Shown here piece by piece: positions 21,777 through 25,425 of a stretch of DNA of 41,035 nucleotides. The position numbers and the translations under genes were made by a program. The stretch covers positions 1-41,035 of the forward strand of contig CAMDKR010000002.1 in NCBI GenBank assembly GCA_945901225.1, given 5' to 3'. Under the pieces are notes generated by a model. It ran no database searches, was not told the origin of the DNA, and saw nothing but the letters and a program-made list of their open reading frames with translations. The stretch is from Bordetella parapertussis (GTDB lineage: Bacteria > Pseudomonadota > Gammaproteobacteria > Burkholderiales > Burkholderiaceae_C). Positions within the stretch are counted from its first letter, which is position 1, and every line of letters starts with the position of its first letter.

Positions 21777-23237
21777 ATGATTTCACGCGAACCTACCCTC
21801 GAGCGATTGACCATCGCGCAAAACCTGCTGCTTACGCCTTACGGCTTGGACGAATCCCACCTCACCCAAGCTTTGTCGGCCATCCGTGCCCACCAAGTCG
21901 ATGACGCTGATTTGTACTTTCAGTACACCCGCTCCGAAGGTTGGAGCTTGGAAGAGGGCATTGTCAAAACCGGTTCTTTCAGTATCGACCAAGGTGTGGG
22001 TGTGCGCGCGGTCAGCGGCGAGAAAACTGCCTTTGCCTATTCTGACGATATTTCCATGGCGTCACTCATGGACGCAGCGCACACTGTTCGCAGCATCGCC
22101 TCGGCGGGTTTGAGTGCCAGCACCCACGTACCTGCAAGGGTCATCGCGCCCAGTCGTCAGCTTTACCACGGGCTAGACCCCATCGGCAGTTTGGACAGCA
22201 CAGCCAAAGTTCAGTTGCTCGAGCGCATGGAAAAGCAAGCCCGTGCCAAAGACCCACGTGTGGTGCAAGTCATGGCTGGATTGGCCAGCGAGTACGACGT
22301 GGTGATGGTGGCGCGAGCTGATGGCACCTTGGCGGCCGATGTGCGTCCCTTGGTCCGCTTGTCCTTGTCGGTCATCGTCGAGCAAAACGGTCGTCGTGAA
22401 AGTGGCTCGGCCGGCGGCGGTGGCCGCTTTGGTTTGGCGCATTTTGATACGGCTTGCCTCACCCGTTACGTGGACGAAGCTGTAGGCTCTGCTCTCACCA
22501 ATTTAGAAGCACGCCCTGCACCTGCGGGTGAAATGACCGTGGTGCTGGGTTCGGGTTGGCCTGGCATTTTGTTGCATGAAGCCATCGGCCATGGGCTGGA
22601 GGGCGACTTCAACCGCAAAGGTTCAAGCGCATTCAGCGGCAAGATTGGCCAACGTGTGGCCGCCAAAGGCGTCACCGTGTTGGACGACGGCACCATCGCC
22701 GATCGACGCGGCTCGCTCAATGTGGACGATGAAGGCCACGCCAGTCAAAAAAATGTGCTGATTGAAGATGGCATCTTGGTGGGCTATATCCAAGACAGTT
22801 TGAACGCCCGTCTGATGGGTGTTGCCCCCACGGGCAACGGTAGACGCGAAAGCTATGCGCATGTGCCCATGCCGCGCATGACCAATACCTATATGTTGGC
22901 AGGTGAAAAGCCCCCAGAAGAAATCGTCGCCAGCATCAAAAAAGGTTTGTACGCCACCAACTTTGGCGGTGGTCAGGTGGACATCACCTCGGGCAAGTTT
23001 GTCTTCTCTGCCAGCCAAGCGTTTTGGGTGGAAAACGGGAAAATCCAATACCCTGTCAAGGGTGCCACCTTGGTTGGCAATGGCCCTGATGCGCTCACCC
23101 GTGTCAGCATGATCGGCAACGACATGGCGCTGGACCCAGGTGTGGGCACCTGCGGCAAAGAGGGCCAAAGCGTGCCAGTGGGTGTAGGTCAACCCACCTT
23201 GCGCATCGATGGTTTAACGGTGGGCGGCACCGCATAA
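21777..23237 (+). CDS. tldD: Metalloprotease TldD
   Basis: Zinc protease subunit that with TldE (PmbA) degrades unfolded peptides and matures some modified peptides. 486 residues. The zinc motif HEAIGHGLEGD is at residues 267-277, and the C-terminal VGTCGKEGQSVPVGVGQPTLRID holds the conserved cysteine ligand. The start is ATG 21777 (MISREPTLERL); the open frame extends to a start-like codon at 21750 in the rodA-tldD gap but that is not supported. No pmbA is in the window. The next gene region begins with the aro attenuator 30-45 bases after its stop. Confidence 0.96.
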   Translation: MISREPTLERLTIAQNLLLTPYGLDESHLTQALSAIRAHQVDDADLYFQYTRSEGWSLEEGIVKTGSFSIDQGVGVRAVSGEKTAFAYSDDISMASLMDAAHTVRSIASAGLSASTHVPARVIAPSRQLYHGLDPIGSLDSTAKVQLLERMEKQARAKDPRVVQVMAGLASEYDVVMVARADGTLAADVRPLVRLSLSVIVEQNGRRESGSAGGGGRFGLAHFDTACLTRYVDEAVGSALTNLEARPAPAGEMTVVLGSGWPGILLHEAIGHGLEGDFNRKGSSAFSGKIGQRVAAKGVTVLDDGTIADRRGSLNVDDEGHASQKNVLIEDGILVGYIQDSLNARLMGVAPTGNGRRESYAHVPMPRMTNTYMLAGEKPPEEIVASIKKGLYATNFGGGQVDITSGKFVFSASQAFWVENGKIQYPVKGATLVGNGPDALTRVSMIGNDMALDPGVGTCGKEGQSVPVGVGQPTLRIDGLTVGGTA

Positions 23238-23265
23238 CGGCGGCCCAAAGCGCCAAAAAAGCCTG

Positions 23266-23274
23266 TGCTACATT
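23266..23274 (+). promoter_or_regulatory. Extended -10 element ahead of the aromatic leader
   Basis: TGC followed by TACATT (23269-23274) reads as an extended -10 element. No good -35 box lies 16-18 bases upstream, which is tolerable for extended -10 promoters. Transcription would start near 23281-23282, at or next to the ATG of the leader peptide, so the transcript may be leaderless. This is predicted from consensus only. Confidence 0.4.
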
Positions 23275-23281
23275 AACGCGT

Positions 23282-23350
23282 ATGGCTTCTTTGCATTTTT
23301 ACTTTGCTTATTTTTTCTTCTCACGCTTTACCGGCGGTCGAGAGGTCTGA
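23282..23350 (+). CDS. Phe/Tyr-rich leader peptide of the DAHP synthase attenuator
   Basis: Short ORF of 22 codons beginning MASLHFYFAYFFFSRF and ending in TGA at 23348-23350. Eight of 22 residues are aromatic: six Phe and two Tyr, with seven of them packed in codons 6-13 (23297-23320). It lies directly upstream of a terminator and a DAHP synthase gene, the first enzyme of the pathway that makes Phe and Tyr. The arrangement matches classical amino-acid leader peptides such as that of pheA. No Shine-Dalgarno is seen upstream; initiation may be leaderless. The peptide itself probably has no function beyond positioning ribosomes. Confidence 0.8.
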   Translation: MASLHFYFAYFFFSRFTGGREV

Positions 23351-23406
23351 ACGCAAACAACGCTTAGAACCCCGAACCAACCGCCGGCCTCCGGCGGTTT
23401 TTTTTT
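23331..23406 (+). promoter_or_regulatory. Transcription attenuator: antiterminator/terminator switch
   Basis: CCGGCGGT at 23331-23338, inside the end of the leader ORF, is identical to the 3' arm of the downstream terminator (23391-23398). It can therefore pair with the terminator 5' arm ACCGCCGG (23380-23387) and prevent terminator formation. A ribosome stalled on the Phe/Tyr codons up to about 23320 leaves this segment free (antitermination); a ribosome that reaches the stop codon at 23348 covers it, letting the terminator form. Thus high charged Phe/Tyr tRNA should switch the DAHP synthase off. Positions are seen; the mechanism is inferred from the trp/phe/his attenuation model. Confidence 0.75.
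23379..23406 (+). terminator. Intrinsic terminator in the DAHP synthase leader
   Basis: AACCGCCGG (23379-23387), three-base loop CCT, CCGGCGGTT (23391-23399), with a run of nine T residues at 23398-23406. A strong, textbook intrinsic terminator, placed 28 bases after the leader stop and 45 bases before the DAHP synthase start, so it can only act as an attenuator or as the end of upstream transcription. Confidence 0.88.
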
Positions 23407-23451
23407 GCCAAACCCTGTTGCCCCGATCAGAAACGCCTCCAAGGAGCTTTG

Positions 23452-24567
23452 ATGAAAACCCCCAAGCATGATGCTTATGCACCGATCAATGACCAGACCA
23501 GCCAAACCGACAACCAACGCATCAAGGACATCACCGTGTTGCCGCCTCCTGAACATTTGATCCGCTTCTTTCCCATTGCCGGCACGGCCGTTGAGAGCTT
23601 GATCGCCAAGACCCGCCAGCGCGTGCACAAAATCATGGCTGGTAAAGACGATCGTTTGCTGGTGGTGATGGGTCCTTGCTCCATCCACGACCCAGCCGCC
23701 GCCTTGGACTATGCGCGCCGCTTGAAGGTCGAGCGCGAAAAGTACGCTGATACGCTGGAAATCGTGATGCGGGTGTACTTCGAAAAGCCCCGCACCACCG
23801 TGGGTTGGAAAGGCTTGATCAATGACCCTTACTTGGATGAGAGCTTTCGCATTGATGAGGGCTTGCGCATTGCGCGCCAGTTGCTGATCGAGATCAACCG
23901 CGCTGGTGTGCCCGCAGGCAGCGAGTTTTTGGATGTGATTTCACCCCAGTACATTGGCGACCTGATCAGCTGGGGCGCGATTGGTGCCCGCACCACCGAA
24001 AGCCAGGTGCACCGTGAACTGGCCTCGGGCTTGTCGGCACCGATTGGTTTCAAAAACGGGACCGATGGCAACATCAAAATCGCGACAGACGCCATCCAAG
24101 CCGCTGCACGTGGCCACCATTTTTTGTCGGTGCACAAAAACGGCCAAGTGGCGATCGTGCAAACCCAGGGCAACCCCGATTGCCATGTGATTTTGCGAGG
24201 CGGAAAAACCCCCAACTACGACGCCGCCAGTGTTGCCGCAGCCTGCAAAGAGTTGGAAGCCGCCAAATTGCCCGCCAGTTTGATGGTCGATTGCAGCCAT
24301 GCCAACAGCAGCAAGCAGCACGAGCGCCAGTTGGTGGTGGCCCAAGATATCGCCGACCAAATGGCCGGCGGTTCACACAGCGTGTTTGGCGTGATGATTG
24401 AGAGCCACCTCAAAGCGGGTGCGCAAAAATTCACCCCTGGCAAAGACAAGGTGCAAGACTTGGCTTACGGCCAAAGCATCACCGATGCTTGTTTGGCTTG
24501 GGATGACTCCTTGCAAGCGCTGGACGTGCTGTCCAAAGGTGTCAAAGCTCGGCGCGGAAAGAAATAA
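23452..24567 (+). CDS. aroG: 3-deoxy-7-phosphoheptulonate (DAHP) synthase, class I
   Basis: Condenses phosphoenolpyruvate and erythrose 4-phosphate in the first step of the shikimate pathway. 371 residues, normal for the AroF/G/H family. Motifs: GPCSIHDP, YFEKPRTTVGWKG, GARTTESQVHRELASG, GFKNGTDG, and MVDCSHANSSK near the metal site. ATG 23452 follows a clear Shine-Dalgarno AAGGAG (23441-23446); a TTG one codon earlier is ignored. Expression appears controlled by the Phe/Tyr leader upstream. The symbol aroG is by family; which amino acid feeds back on the enzyme (Phe, Tyr or Trp isozyme) cannot be read with certainty, though the leader suggests Phe with Tyr. Confidence 0.95.
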   Translation: MKTPKHDAYAPINDQTSQTDNQRIKDITVLPPPEHLIRFFPIAGTAVESLIAKTRQRVHKIMAGKDDRLLVVMGPCSIHDPAAALDYARRLKVEREKYADTLEIVMRVYFEKPRTTVGWKGLINDPYLDESFRIDEGLRIARQLLIEINRAGVPAGSEFLDVISPQYIGDLISWGAIGARTTESQVHRELASGLSAPIGFKNGTDGNIKIATDAIQAAARGHHFLSVHKNGQVAIVQTQGNPDCHVILRGGKTPNYDAASVAAACKELEAAKLPASLMVDCSHANSSKQHERQLVVAQDIADQMAGGSHSVFGVMIESHLKAGAQKFTPGKDKVQDLAYGQSITDACLAWDDSLQALDVLSKGVKARRGKK

Positions 24568-24575
24568 ACAGCCGC

Positions 24576-24592
24576 CCGGGGCTTGGCCCCGG
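24576..24592 (+). terminator. GC-rich hairpin after the DAHP synthase
   Basis: CCGGGGC (24576-24582), loop TTG, GCCCCGG (24586-24592), eight bases past the aroG stop. A strong stem but without a T-run, so a non-canonical terminator or 3' end-protecting hairpin is likely rather than a certain intrinsic terminator. Confidence 0.45.
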
Positions 24593-24673
24593 TCGGTTGT
24601 GGGCTTTCGGCCGGGATGCGCGCGGGTCGCTTTTGGCACGACAGGACATGCCCATGAAGCAGATATATATGCC

Positions 24674-24697
24674 TATAATGTACATTTGAAAAGTACA
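24674..24697 (+). promoter_or_regulatory. Toxin-antitoxin promoter with operator palindrome
   Basis: A perfect -10 box TATAAT (24674-24679) is overlapped at its last base by a near-perfect 19-base inverted repeat: TGTAC (24679-24683) and GTACA (24693-24697), with TTT/AAA inside, differing from full symmetry by one base pair plus the centre. It covers the expected transcription start. No clear -35 box was found. This is the usual place for autorepression by a Phd/YefM antitoxin, alone or with its toxin. AAAGG (24699-24703) is the following ribosome binding site. Confidence 0.65.
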
Positions 24698-24709
24698 TAA
24701 AGGTTATTT

Positions 24710-25018
24710 ATGTCCATGTCCATTGCCCAGTCTCGACAGCAGCTCTCCGCCCTGATCGCAGCGGCCCAACTGCAACCCCAAACCATCACCAACCGCAACA
24801 AACCAGTGGCGGTGCTGGTGTCGGCCGACTACTATGCCCGCAGCGAAGCCACGGTCAAACCCGAGGTTGAGGGTTTTTACAGCCAGTGGCTGCTGCTGCG
24901 AGAGGCCTTTGCGCCGCTGGACGACACCGGCCTGGGCACTGTCGACGCTGCAGCGCGGCCTGCAGCCTGGCAACGCGAGAATGCTTTTGTGGAGCCCATG
25001 ACAGGGCCACGCCCATGA
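24710..25018 (+). CDS. Phd/YefM-family antitoxin
   Basis: Antitoxin half of a type II toxin-antitoxin pair. 102 residues. The N-terminal part (about residues 1-45: SIAQSRQQLSALIAAAQ, TITNRNKPVAVLVSADYY) is a Phd/YefM DNA-binding fold with the typical 'N/R-x-G/N-K-P-V-A-V-L-V-S' strand; the C-terminal half would wrap the toxin. ATG 24710 follows AAAGG at a spacing of six; ATG 24716 is a possible alternative. The stop overlaps the toxin start (ATGA). Likely autoregulated through the palindrome at 24679-24697. Type assignment is by motif only. Confidence 0.85.
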   Translation: MSMSIAQSRQQLSALIAAAQLQPQTITNRNKPVAVLVSADYYARSEATVKPEVEGFYSQWLLLREAFAPLDDTGLGTVDAAARPAAWQRENAFVEPMTGPRP

Positions 25019-25425
25019 GCGGAACCATCGTTTTGGCCGACACCAATGTCATCAGTGAGTTGGTGAAGAACAAGCCCGACACACAGGTGATGCGCTGGCT
25101 GCAGACGGTGCAAGGGATGGCCATCTCTGCCATCACGCTGGAGGAAGCGCATTTTGGGATGGCGTGGCAACCCAATGCCCGCAAGCTGGCGCTGTTCAAC
25201 GCTTTGGTTGAGCGTCTGCACGCTGTGTATGCCATCAGCCCGGCCATTGCGCAGCGTGGGGGTGTATTGCGTGGGCAATTTCAGGCCCAAGGCATCTCGC
25301 GCAGCGCTCCCGATATGCTGATTGCCGCCACCGCCATGGAGCACCAATTGGTGCTGGCCACGCGCAATGTGCGCGACTTCTTGGGATGTGGCGTGCAACT
25401 CATCAACCCGTTTGAGGCTGCTTGA
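25015..25425 (+). CDS. VapC-family PIN-domain toxin (putative RNase)
   Basis: Toxin half of the pair: a 136-residue PIN domain, predicted metal-dependent RNase. Candidate acidic active-site residues are D9 (VLADTNVISEL), E43 or E44 (ITLEEAHFGM), D100 (SAPDMLIAATA) and D121 (TRNVRDF), the standard PIN quartet order, so it looks intact. The start is ATG 25015, which overlaps the antitoxin stop; the frame is open further upstream inside the antitoxin but that N terminus has no PIN character. It resembles the FitB/VapC group by its DTNVISEL start. RNA target unknown. Confidence 0.88.
   Translation: MSGTIVLADTNVISELVKNKPDTQVMRWLQTVQGMAISAITLEEAHFGMAWQPNARKLALFNALVERLHAVYAISPAIAQRGGVLRGQFQAQGISRSAPDMLIAATAMEHQLVLATRNVRDFLGCGVQLINPFEAA

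Follow-up and report, generated by a model that had tools for sequence, protein, structure and literature searches.

A probably leaderless, aromatic-rich leader and a predicted transcription attenuator upstream of the DAHP synthase gene aroG

In the stretch of DNA analyzed here (41,035 nucleotides, hereafter the window), the gene aroG is preceded by a short reading frame crowded with Phe and Tyr codons and by an intrinsic terminator. Judged from the sequence, these elements very probably constitute a ribosome-mediated transcription attenuator, which would sense the charging of aromatic tRNAs and set read-through into aroG. All parts lie on the + strand, in the 214-base gap between the end of tldD (23237) and aroG (23452–24567). 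The product of the putatively regulated gene matches TIGR00034 with 533.7 bits (cut-off 173.2), which bears out its earlier assignment as a DAHP synthase (class I; 3-deoxy-7-phosphoheptulonate synthase), and a Shine-Dalgarno-like AAGGAG can be read before it at 23441–23446. The analysis goes beyond the original prediction in describing a probable leaderless promoter, a Trp codon in the leaders of relatives, a longer antiterminator, a possible 1:2 hairpin, and a spread of the device past the Comamonadaceae.

The leader ORF (23282–23350) was re-read as first described, with 22 codons plus a stop codon (MASLHFYFAYFFFSRFTGGREV), including six for Phe, two for Tyr and none for Trp. Its aromatic density was matched in 2 of 4000 dinucleotide shuffles of 23238–23451, counting any ORF of 12–40 codons with at least 8 F/Y/W among 12 consecutive codons. 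Across the whole 41-kb window, on both strands, no other ORF of 12–40 codons reached 8 of 12, and one reached 7. Between the leader ORF and aroG lies the intrinsic terminator that had been placed there, AACCGCCGG-CCT-CCGGCGGTT with a T run (23379–23406); its stem (23379–23399) has nine pairs, seven of them G-C, and a loop of three, and the T's extend to 23406. Also as originally noted, CCGGCGGT at 23331–23338, inside the end of the leader ORF, repeats the 3′ arm of the terminator exactly. The leader RNA can be divided into four segments. Segment 1 (CTTCTC-A-CGCT, 23317–23327), within the leader ORF, is the 5′ side of a predicted 1:2 hairpin. Segment 2 (23331–23345), consisting of CCGGCGGT and then CGAGAGG, is the predicted 5′ side of the antiterminator. 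Segment 3 (23361–23387, unpaired bases included) is its 3′ side and overlaps at its end the terminator 5′ arm (23379–23387), and segments 3:4 form the terminator.

Conservation of the aromatic-rich ORF before aroG orthologues had been proposed as a check on the original prediction, which passes it. The AroG protein matches considered are the best 80 of those listed, and hence close relatives; at 62 of these loci an aromatic leader and a terminator precede aroG, as they do at 29 of 29 loci from other genomes of the family. The remaining 18 of the 80 comprise one locus that ends at a contig edge (L007) and 17 without the unit: four Polynucleobacter-type loci (L028, L029, L031 and L059), two copies from Cupriavidus (L036 and L037) and, for the rest, loci that are more distant. 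In the Polynucleobacter-type loci, whose AroG proteins are 76–80% identical, a tldD-like gene ends only some 20–30 bases upstream of aroG, with neither aromatic leader nor terminator upstream of the gene, which may reflect a loss of the attenuator. When 16 genomes were searched for every copy of the gene, the leader was present at all 10 newly fetched loci of the main orthologue and at none of 14 fetched paralogue loci (54–58% identical; at most 4 aromatic codons in 12), one paralogue having been left out. A second copy of the unit is found in the window's own bin (L081, on contig C11). The contig again carries the end of a tldD-like gene and the same attenuator, and its AroG protein is 98% identical. 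Instead of a duplication, the two loci may reflect a bin in which two close relatives are mixed.

For comparative work we assembled a set of 101 loci, the window and 10 further loci included. As the loci were chosen by their leader, leader counts within the set prove nothing. Two loci counted among the 62 (L049 and L056) are not in the set, their stretches being identical to L091 and L052; L048 and L067, with aromatic ORFs and no terminator, were taken as chance and left out, as were the own-genome matches L082–L084, namely a renewed hit on the window and, as L083, a third match to PF00793. L021 was entered by hand (4 aromatic codons in 12), and the cores of L001, L021 and L089 were set by hand. 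Groups are named from leader C-termini rather than from a tree, and the ‘Comamonadaceae-type’ includes some other lineages. A terminator of the form CCGCC..GGCGG with a T run is present in 101 of 101 loci, these having been picked by the leader alone. In several loci (L010, L017, L024, L030, L085, L096 and others), the terminator hairpin has, instead of a plain loop, an internal loop and a repeated inner stem of the form GAAGCTGAAAAGCC or GACGCTG.AAAGCC. At L021, the leader upstream of aroG has His beside its aromatic codons (MRTTVRYHFWHFHIQHLTGAGVANA), together with a normal terminator and an altered GGCGG core.

Searched with an RNA model built from 52 sequences, 289 of 299 family genomes contain the unit, their best E-values running from 2.1e-25 to 7.3e-10, and the other 10 give no match. 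Across the order, 162 of 399 genomes have a match at E 0.001, and 97 of 399, own family included, have a strong full-length match (6.6e-7 or better). In the genomes that were also searched by protein, all 35 strong order-wide matches lie at most 250 nt upstream of a DAHP synthase. Class-wide, the model matches 6 of 274 genomes at 1e-5: the genome of the window itself, two others from its family and three from outside the order. Two of the three outside the order precede a DAHP synthase; the third (L209 in genome G934) is a terminator-like partial match to model positions 48–118 only, in which no DAHP synthase motif was found, and was rejected. In the order to which the first two belong, which falls in the same GTDB class as Burkholderiales, an AroG protein match was obtained in 11 of 61 genomes, and all 11 have an aromatic leader (e.g. 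MNAARASFYFWYYFPKPLAEEGLRSP) followed, by eye, by similar terminators, mostly CCGCCAG..CTGGCGG. By sequence, then, the device extends past Burkholderiales into this second order. A wider regulon was also considered and rejected: the 10 family genomes with extra model matches have one strong match each. The 22 further ones listed are all weak, with E from 1.2e-5 to 9.2e-4, and in 20 cases the match is partial, to the 3′ part of the model. The window has no Rfam match at gathering score. At E up to 10, ten matches fall in 23200–23460, all far below their gathering scores and rejected; the highest bit scores were those of RNAI (16.7; E 0.68) and Phe_leader RF01859 (16.5; E 2.4; gathering score 55).

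Within the 101 loci, the core of segment 2 is GGCGG in 96, GGTGG in 2 and another sequence in 3. Its codon phase is 0 in 63 loci, 2 in 37 and 1 in 1, and it encodes Gly-Gly, Ala-Ala, Leu-Ala-Asp or Lys-Ala-Val, depending on the locus. Because GGCGG is kept while the reading frame shifts, the constraint acts on the RNA. GAGAG follows the core exactly in 82 of the 101 loci, and the antiterminator is predicted to reach into GAGAGG. In eight loci (L010, L024, L027, L030, L096, L110, L118 and L121) the stop codon TGA lies within GAGAGG, and the remainder of the motif is kept, or nearly so, past the end of the ORF. The base 5′ of the core and its partner in the terminator 5′ arm form C-G in 64 loci, T-A in 14, T-G in 6 and A-T in 2, and are unpaired in 15. 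In L081, T-T replaces C-C in the segment and A replaces G in the 5′ arm, and pairing is kept with one G-U. That the core can fold in 101 of 101 loci follows from how cores were picked, and this count carries no evidential weight.

RNAalifold, run on a MAFFT alignment of the antiterminator, recovers the GGCGG:CCGCC helix only. The second helix fails to align, and for this reason we turned to swap tests. Segments 2 and 3 pair best with their own locus: uncorrected for kinship, the mean energy is –18.06 kcal/mol for own partners versus –15.84 for swapped ones, and none of 5000 permutations was as low, either overall or with swaps confined to groups. The second antiterminator helix, likewise uncorrected for kinship, gave 0 of 5000 overall and 0 of 5000 within groups. 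The alternative pairing put forward in the original prediction is thus kept among relatives. Much of the between-group signal may stem from a few old changes. The 1:2 hairpin has a weaker control. Its pairing occurs in 101 of 101 loci, yet also in 3095 of 5050 shuffles, with a median energy z-score of only –1.0; swaps gave 0 of 5000 overall and 2 of 5000 within groups, uncorrected for kinship and with the same pairing common in shuffles. The hairpin is a possible element that would complete a 1-2-3-4 plan.

In the mechanism we propose, RNA polymerase would start at the leader AUG, or a base or two from it, and ribosomes would load on the resulting leaderless mRNA. With aromatic amino acids plentiful, the ribosome would reach the stop codon at 23348 and cover segment 2, and the terminator at 23379–23406 would form. 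Were charged tRNA short, the ribosome would stall at an aromatic codon among codons 6–13 and leave segment 2 (GGCGG plus GAGAGG) free to pair with segment 3 ahead of synthesis of the terminator 3′ arm, so that transcription would go on into aroG. A ribosome reaches 14 nt past the first base of its A-site codon, the value taken here for the geometry, and its usual footprint is 28–30 nt. The claim that stalling at the aromatic codons leaves the segment free holds with this reach for seven of the eight, those at codons 6–13. It fails for Phe16, which is too close, so that a ribosome there would cover the core. A ribosome at the stop codon of the window would, given its footprint, lie over the core. 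Over the 101 loci, 661 of 720 aromatic codons are at least 14 nt before the core, and CCGCC begins at least 20 nt past the stop codon in every locus. By the same footprint estimate, a stop-codon ribosome would reach the GGCGG core in only 41 of the 101; in 46 it would extend mainly to the GAGAGG half, and in 14 less far.

Folding of partial transcripts bears on the order of these events. With the RNA ending at 23390 and a ribosome stalled at codons 6–13, the pairing probability between the core and the 5′ arm is 1.0. Once the RNA ends at 23400, it is at most 0.04 at all 13 stall positions tested, with the terminator fold prevailing at equilibrium. Since equilibrium favors the terminator at each of these positions once its 3′ arm exists, the switch must be kinetic, the first helix formed being decisive. 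With no ribosome on it, the RNA folds into the 1:2 hairpin when it extends to 23365 and into the antiterminator when it extends to 23390.

Just upstream of the leader lies a putative extended –10 promoter box, TGTGCTACATT (23264–23274), which is the only exact copy in the window and is kept in relatives. Its TACATT ends 7 nt before the ATG. Of 82 Comamonadaceae-type leaders, 76 have a TAnnnT box that ends 5–9 nt before the start codon, 74 of them with TGn ahead of it; the box is absent near the start codon in the other 6 and in all 19 Burkholderiaceae- and Oxalobacteraceae-type leaders. Similar TA-rich boxes were seen by eye near most leader start codons of the second order. Transcription is predicted to start at about 23281–23282, i.e. 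at the leader start codon. Given that a start ∼7 nt after the box falls on the AUG, and that a Shine-Dalgarno-like tetramer precedes the leader start in only 1 of 101 loci, the leader mRNA is probably leaderless. A generic sigma-70 scan of 22900–24700, in which a –35 box was required, returned no promoter. No conserved –35 element was seen either in a comparison of sequences picked by a pattern, and this would suit a different reading of TGTGCTACATT, as the operator of a DNA-binding regulator, with transcription starting further upstream. So would the near-invariance of TGTGCTACATT over some ten bases, which is strong for a –10 box. We regard the operator as unlikely nonetheless, because it accounts poorly for the TGnTAnnnT form and the 5–9-nt spacing to the start codon, and because many Burkholderiaceae- and Oxalobacteraceae-type loci have, by eye, TATAAA or TATAGT boxes further upstream.

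In the 101-locus set, codon numbers per leader average 4.48 for Phe, 1.79 for Tyr and 0.86 for Trp. One Trp codon is found in 77 leaders, two in 5 and none in 19; the Trp-free leaders include those of the window, L081 and the genus mate L114. As 82 of 101 leaders hold Trp, the sensor may read Phe, Tyr and Trp in most relatives; in the window it would read Phe and Tyr. In 73 of 87 cases, the Trp codon lies 14–18 nt before the core, at a distance that would still leave the core uncovered by a ribosome stalled there.

The aromatic run itself is alike between groups (FYFxYFWFS, FYFYFFWYL, FYFWYYF), which would be expected if the leader peptide were the active agent, through nascent-chain arrest or as a trans-acting small protein, and the attenuator a side effect. 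Such activity has a precedent in the S. meliloti leader peptide peTrpL, described as acting in trans (PMC7298713). Against this, the C-termini of the peptide vary by group (GGREV, AAGEA, PLADREG, NPKAVE), while the RNA segment is constant. We consider this explanation very unlikely, and action of the peptide would not in any case exclude attenuation. Strong RNA conservation, together with the persistence of GAGAGG past the stop codon in eight loci, could instead mean that leader and terminator work with an RNA-binding protein or a small-molecule aptamer, the aromatic ORF being incidental. That is harder to reconcile with an aromatic ORF before the terminator in 62 of the best 80 loci listed and in 29 of 29 others, despite differing C-terminal peptides and core phases. 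RNAalifold, moreover, sees no conserved fold beyond the core helix, and no Rfam family is matched at gathering score; the idea seems to us highly improbable. We give practically no credence to a plain terminator of tldD accompanied by a chance ORF. The position of tldD would allow it, as the gene ends upstream on the same strand, at 23237. Such an ORF, however, arose in only 2 of 4000 shuffles, and conservation specific to the orthologue (10 of 10 loci versus 0 of 14 paralogues; 289 of 299 genomes) refutes it.

By mechanism, the attenuator we propose is of a classic kind, and the original prediction's view that a mixed Phe/Tyr leader at a DAHP synthase gene represents a different logic is only partly borne out: a mixed leader has already been reported for this enzyme from another phylum. 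In C. glutamicum, aroR before aroF is likewise described as a mixed Phe/Tyr leader with attenuation, and read-through is reported to increase on Phe limitation (PMC4046766, PMC11802643). As described, aroR differs in belonging to the Actinobacteria, in having Phe-Tyr-Phe only and in that Tyr availability was reported to be without effect (PMC4046766, PMC11802643). A candidate uORF in Acholeplasma, uORFC-13-1, likewise places Phe codon(s) just ahead of a terminator before the DAHP synthase gene aroF; it is presented as a proposed motif of 24 sequences (one genus plus environmental) that differs in having an RBS and in requiring at least one Phe codon only (PMC8632094). The E. coli pheA (Rfam Phe_leader) and pheST leaders are also described as Phe leaders with attenuators (PMC11802643). 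They differ in the genes controlled, and with 16.5 bits the window stays far below the gathering score of Phe_leader (55). For a leaderless start there is a precedent in S. meliloti trpL-trpE(G), where the 5′ end of the attenuator RNA is given as the leader ATG and the leader mRNA as possibly leaderless (PMC7298713); this one is a Trp leader before trpE(G), in another class. Also on record are an aroF attenuator of Shewanella, given as literature-supported (PMC2659441), and tyrA-associated attenuators in table 7 of PMC1173090, taken there from Merino's site. The aroG unit, an unusually clean example, stands out by its wide conservation, by a start that is probably leaderless and by a code of three amino acids in its relatives.

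Our literature search, which covered mostly open papers in their main text, returned no report of an aroG Phe/Tyr leader in Betaproteobacteria, and an earlier listing is possible. By term search, neither DAHP nor aroF is named in the main text of a 2010 survey of premature terminators (PMC2965389), nor aroG in the searched text of a B. cenocepacia start-site paper (PMC4603805). In R. solanacearum, aroG1- and aroG2-lacZ fusions are reported to rise about 10–20 fold on deletion of the other gene; 1 mM Phe then lowers them 2–3 fold in the deletion strains, with little change in the wild type (PMC6379268). This behavior would fit attenuation and would also fit other forms of control, and we do not assume that the leader is present there.

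TrpR and TyrR are stated to be absent outside gammaproteobacteria (PMC5343134), and in our own search TrpR was found above the Pfam cut-off in 0 of 100 family genomes, with 2 weak matches below it. A conserved attenuator could therefore be a concrete answer to how entry into the aromatic pathway is controlled in bacteria seemingly without TrpR. We tentatively extend this to a broader reading, to which we give a little less than an even chance: that a single leaderless leader mRNA, shared by Burkholderiales and the second order, would integrate the charging of Phe, Tyr and Trp tRNAs, thereby gate the shikimate pathway at its first committed step, and stand in for TyrR and TrpR. The aroG leader may serve as a natural test bed for how one leader reads several tRNAs and for attenuation on a leaderless mRNA. 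It could also provide Rfam with a family that the database seemingly lacks.

Just 3′ of aroG (24679–25425) lie an ORF for a Phd/YefM-type antitoxin (24710–25018) and a PIN-domain ORF (about 25012–25425), which are likely a toxin-antitoxin pair. An inverted repeat, TGTACATTTGAAAAGTACA, precedes the antitoxin ORF at 24679–24697.
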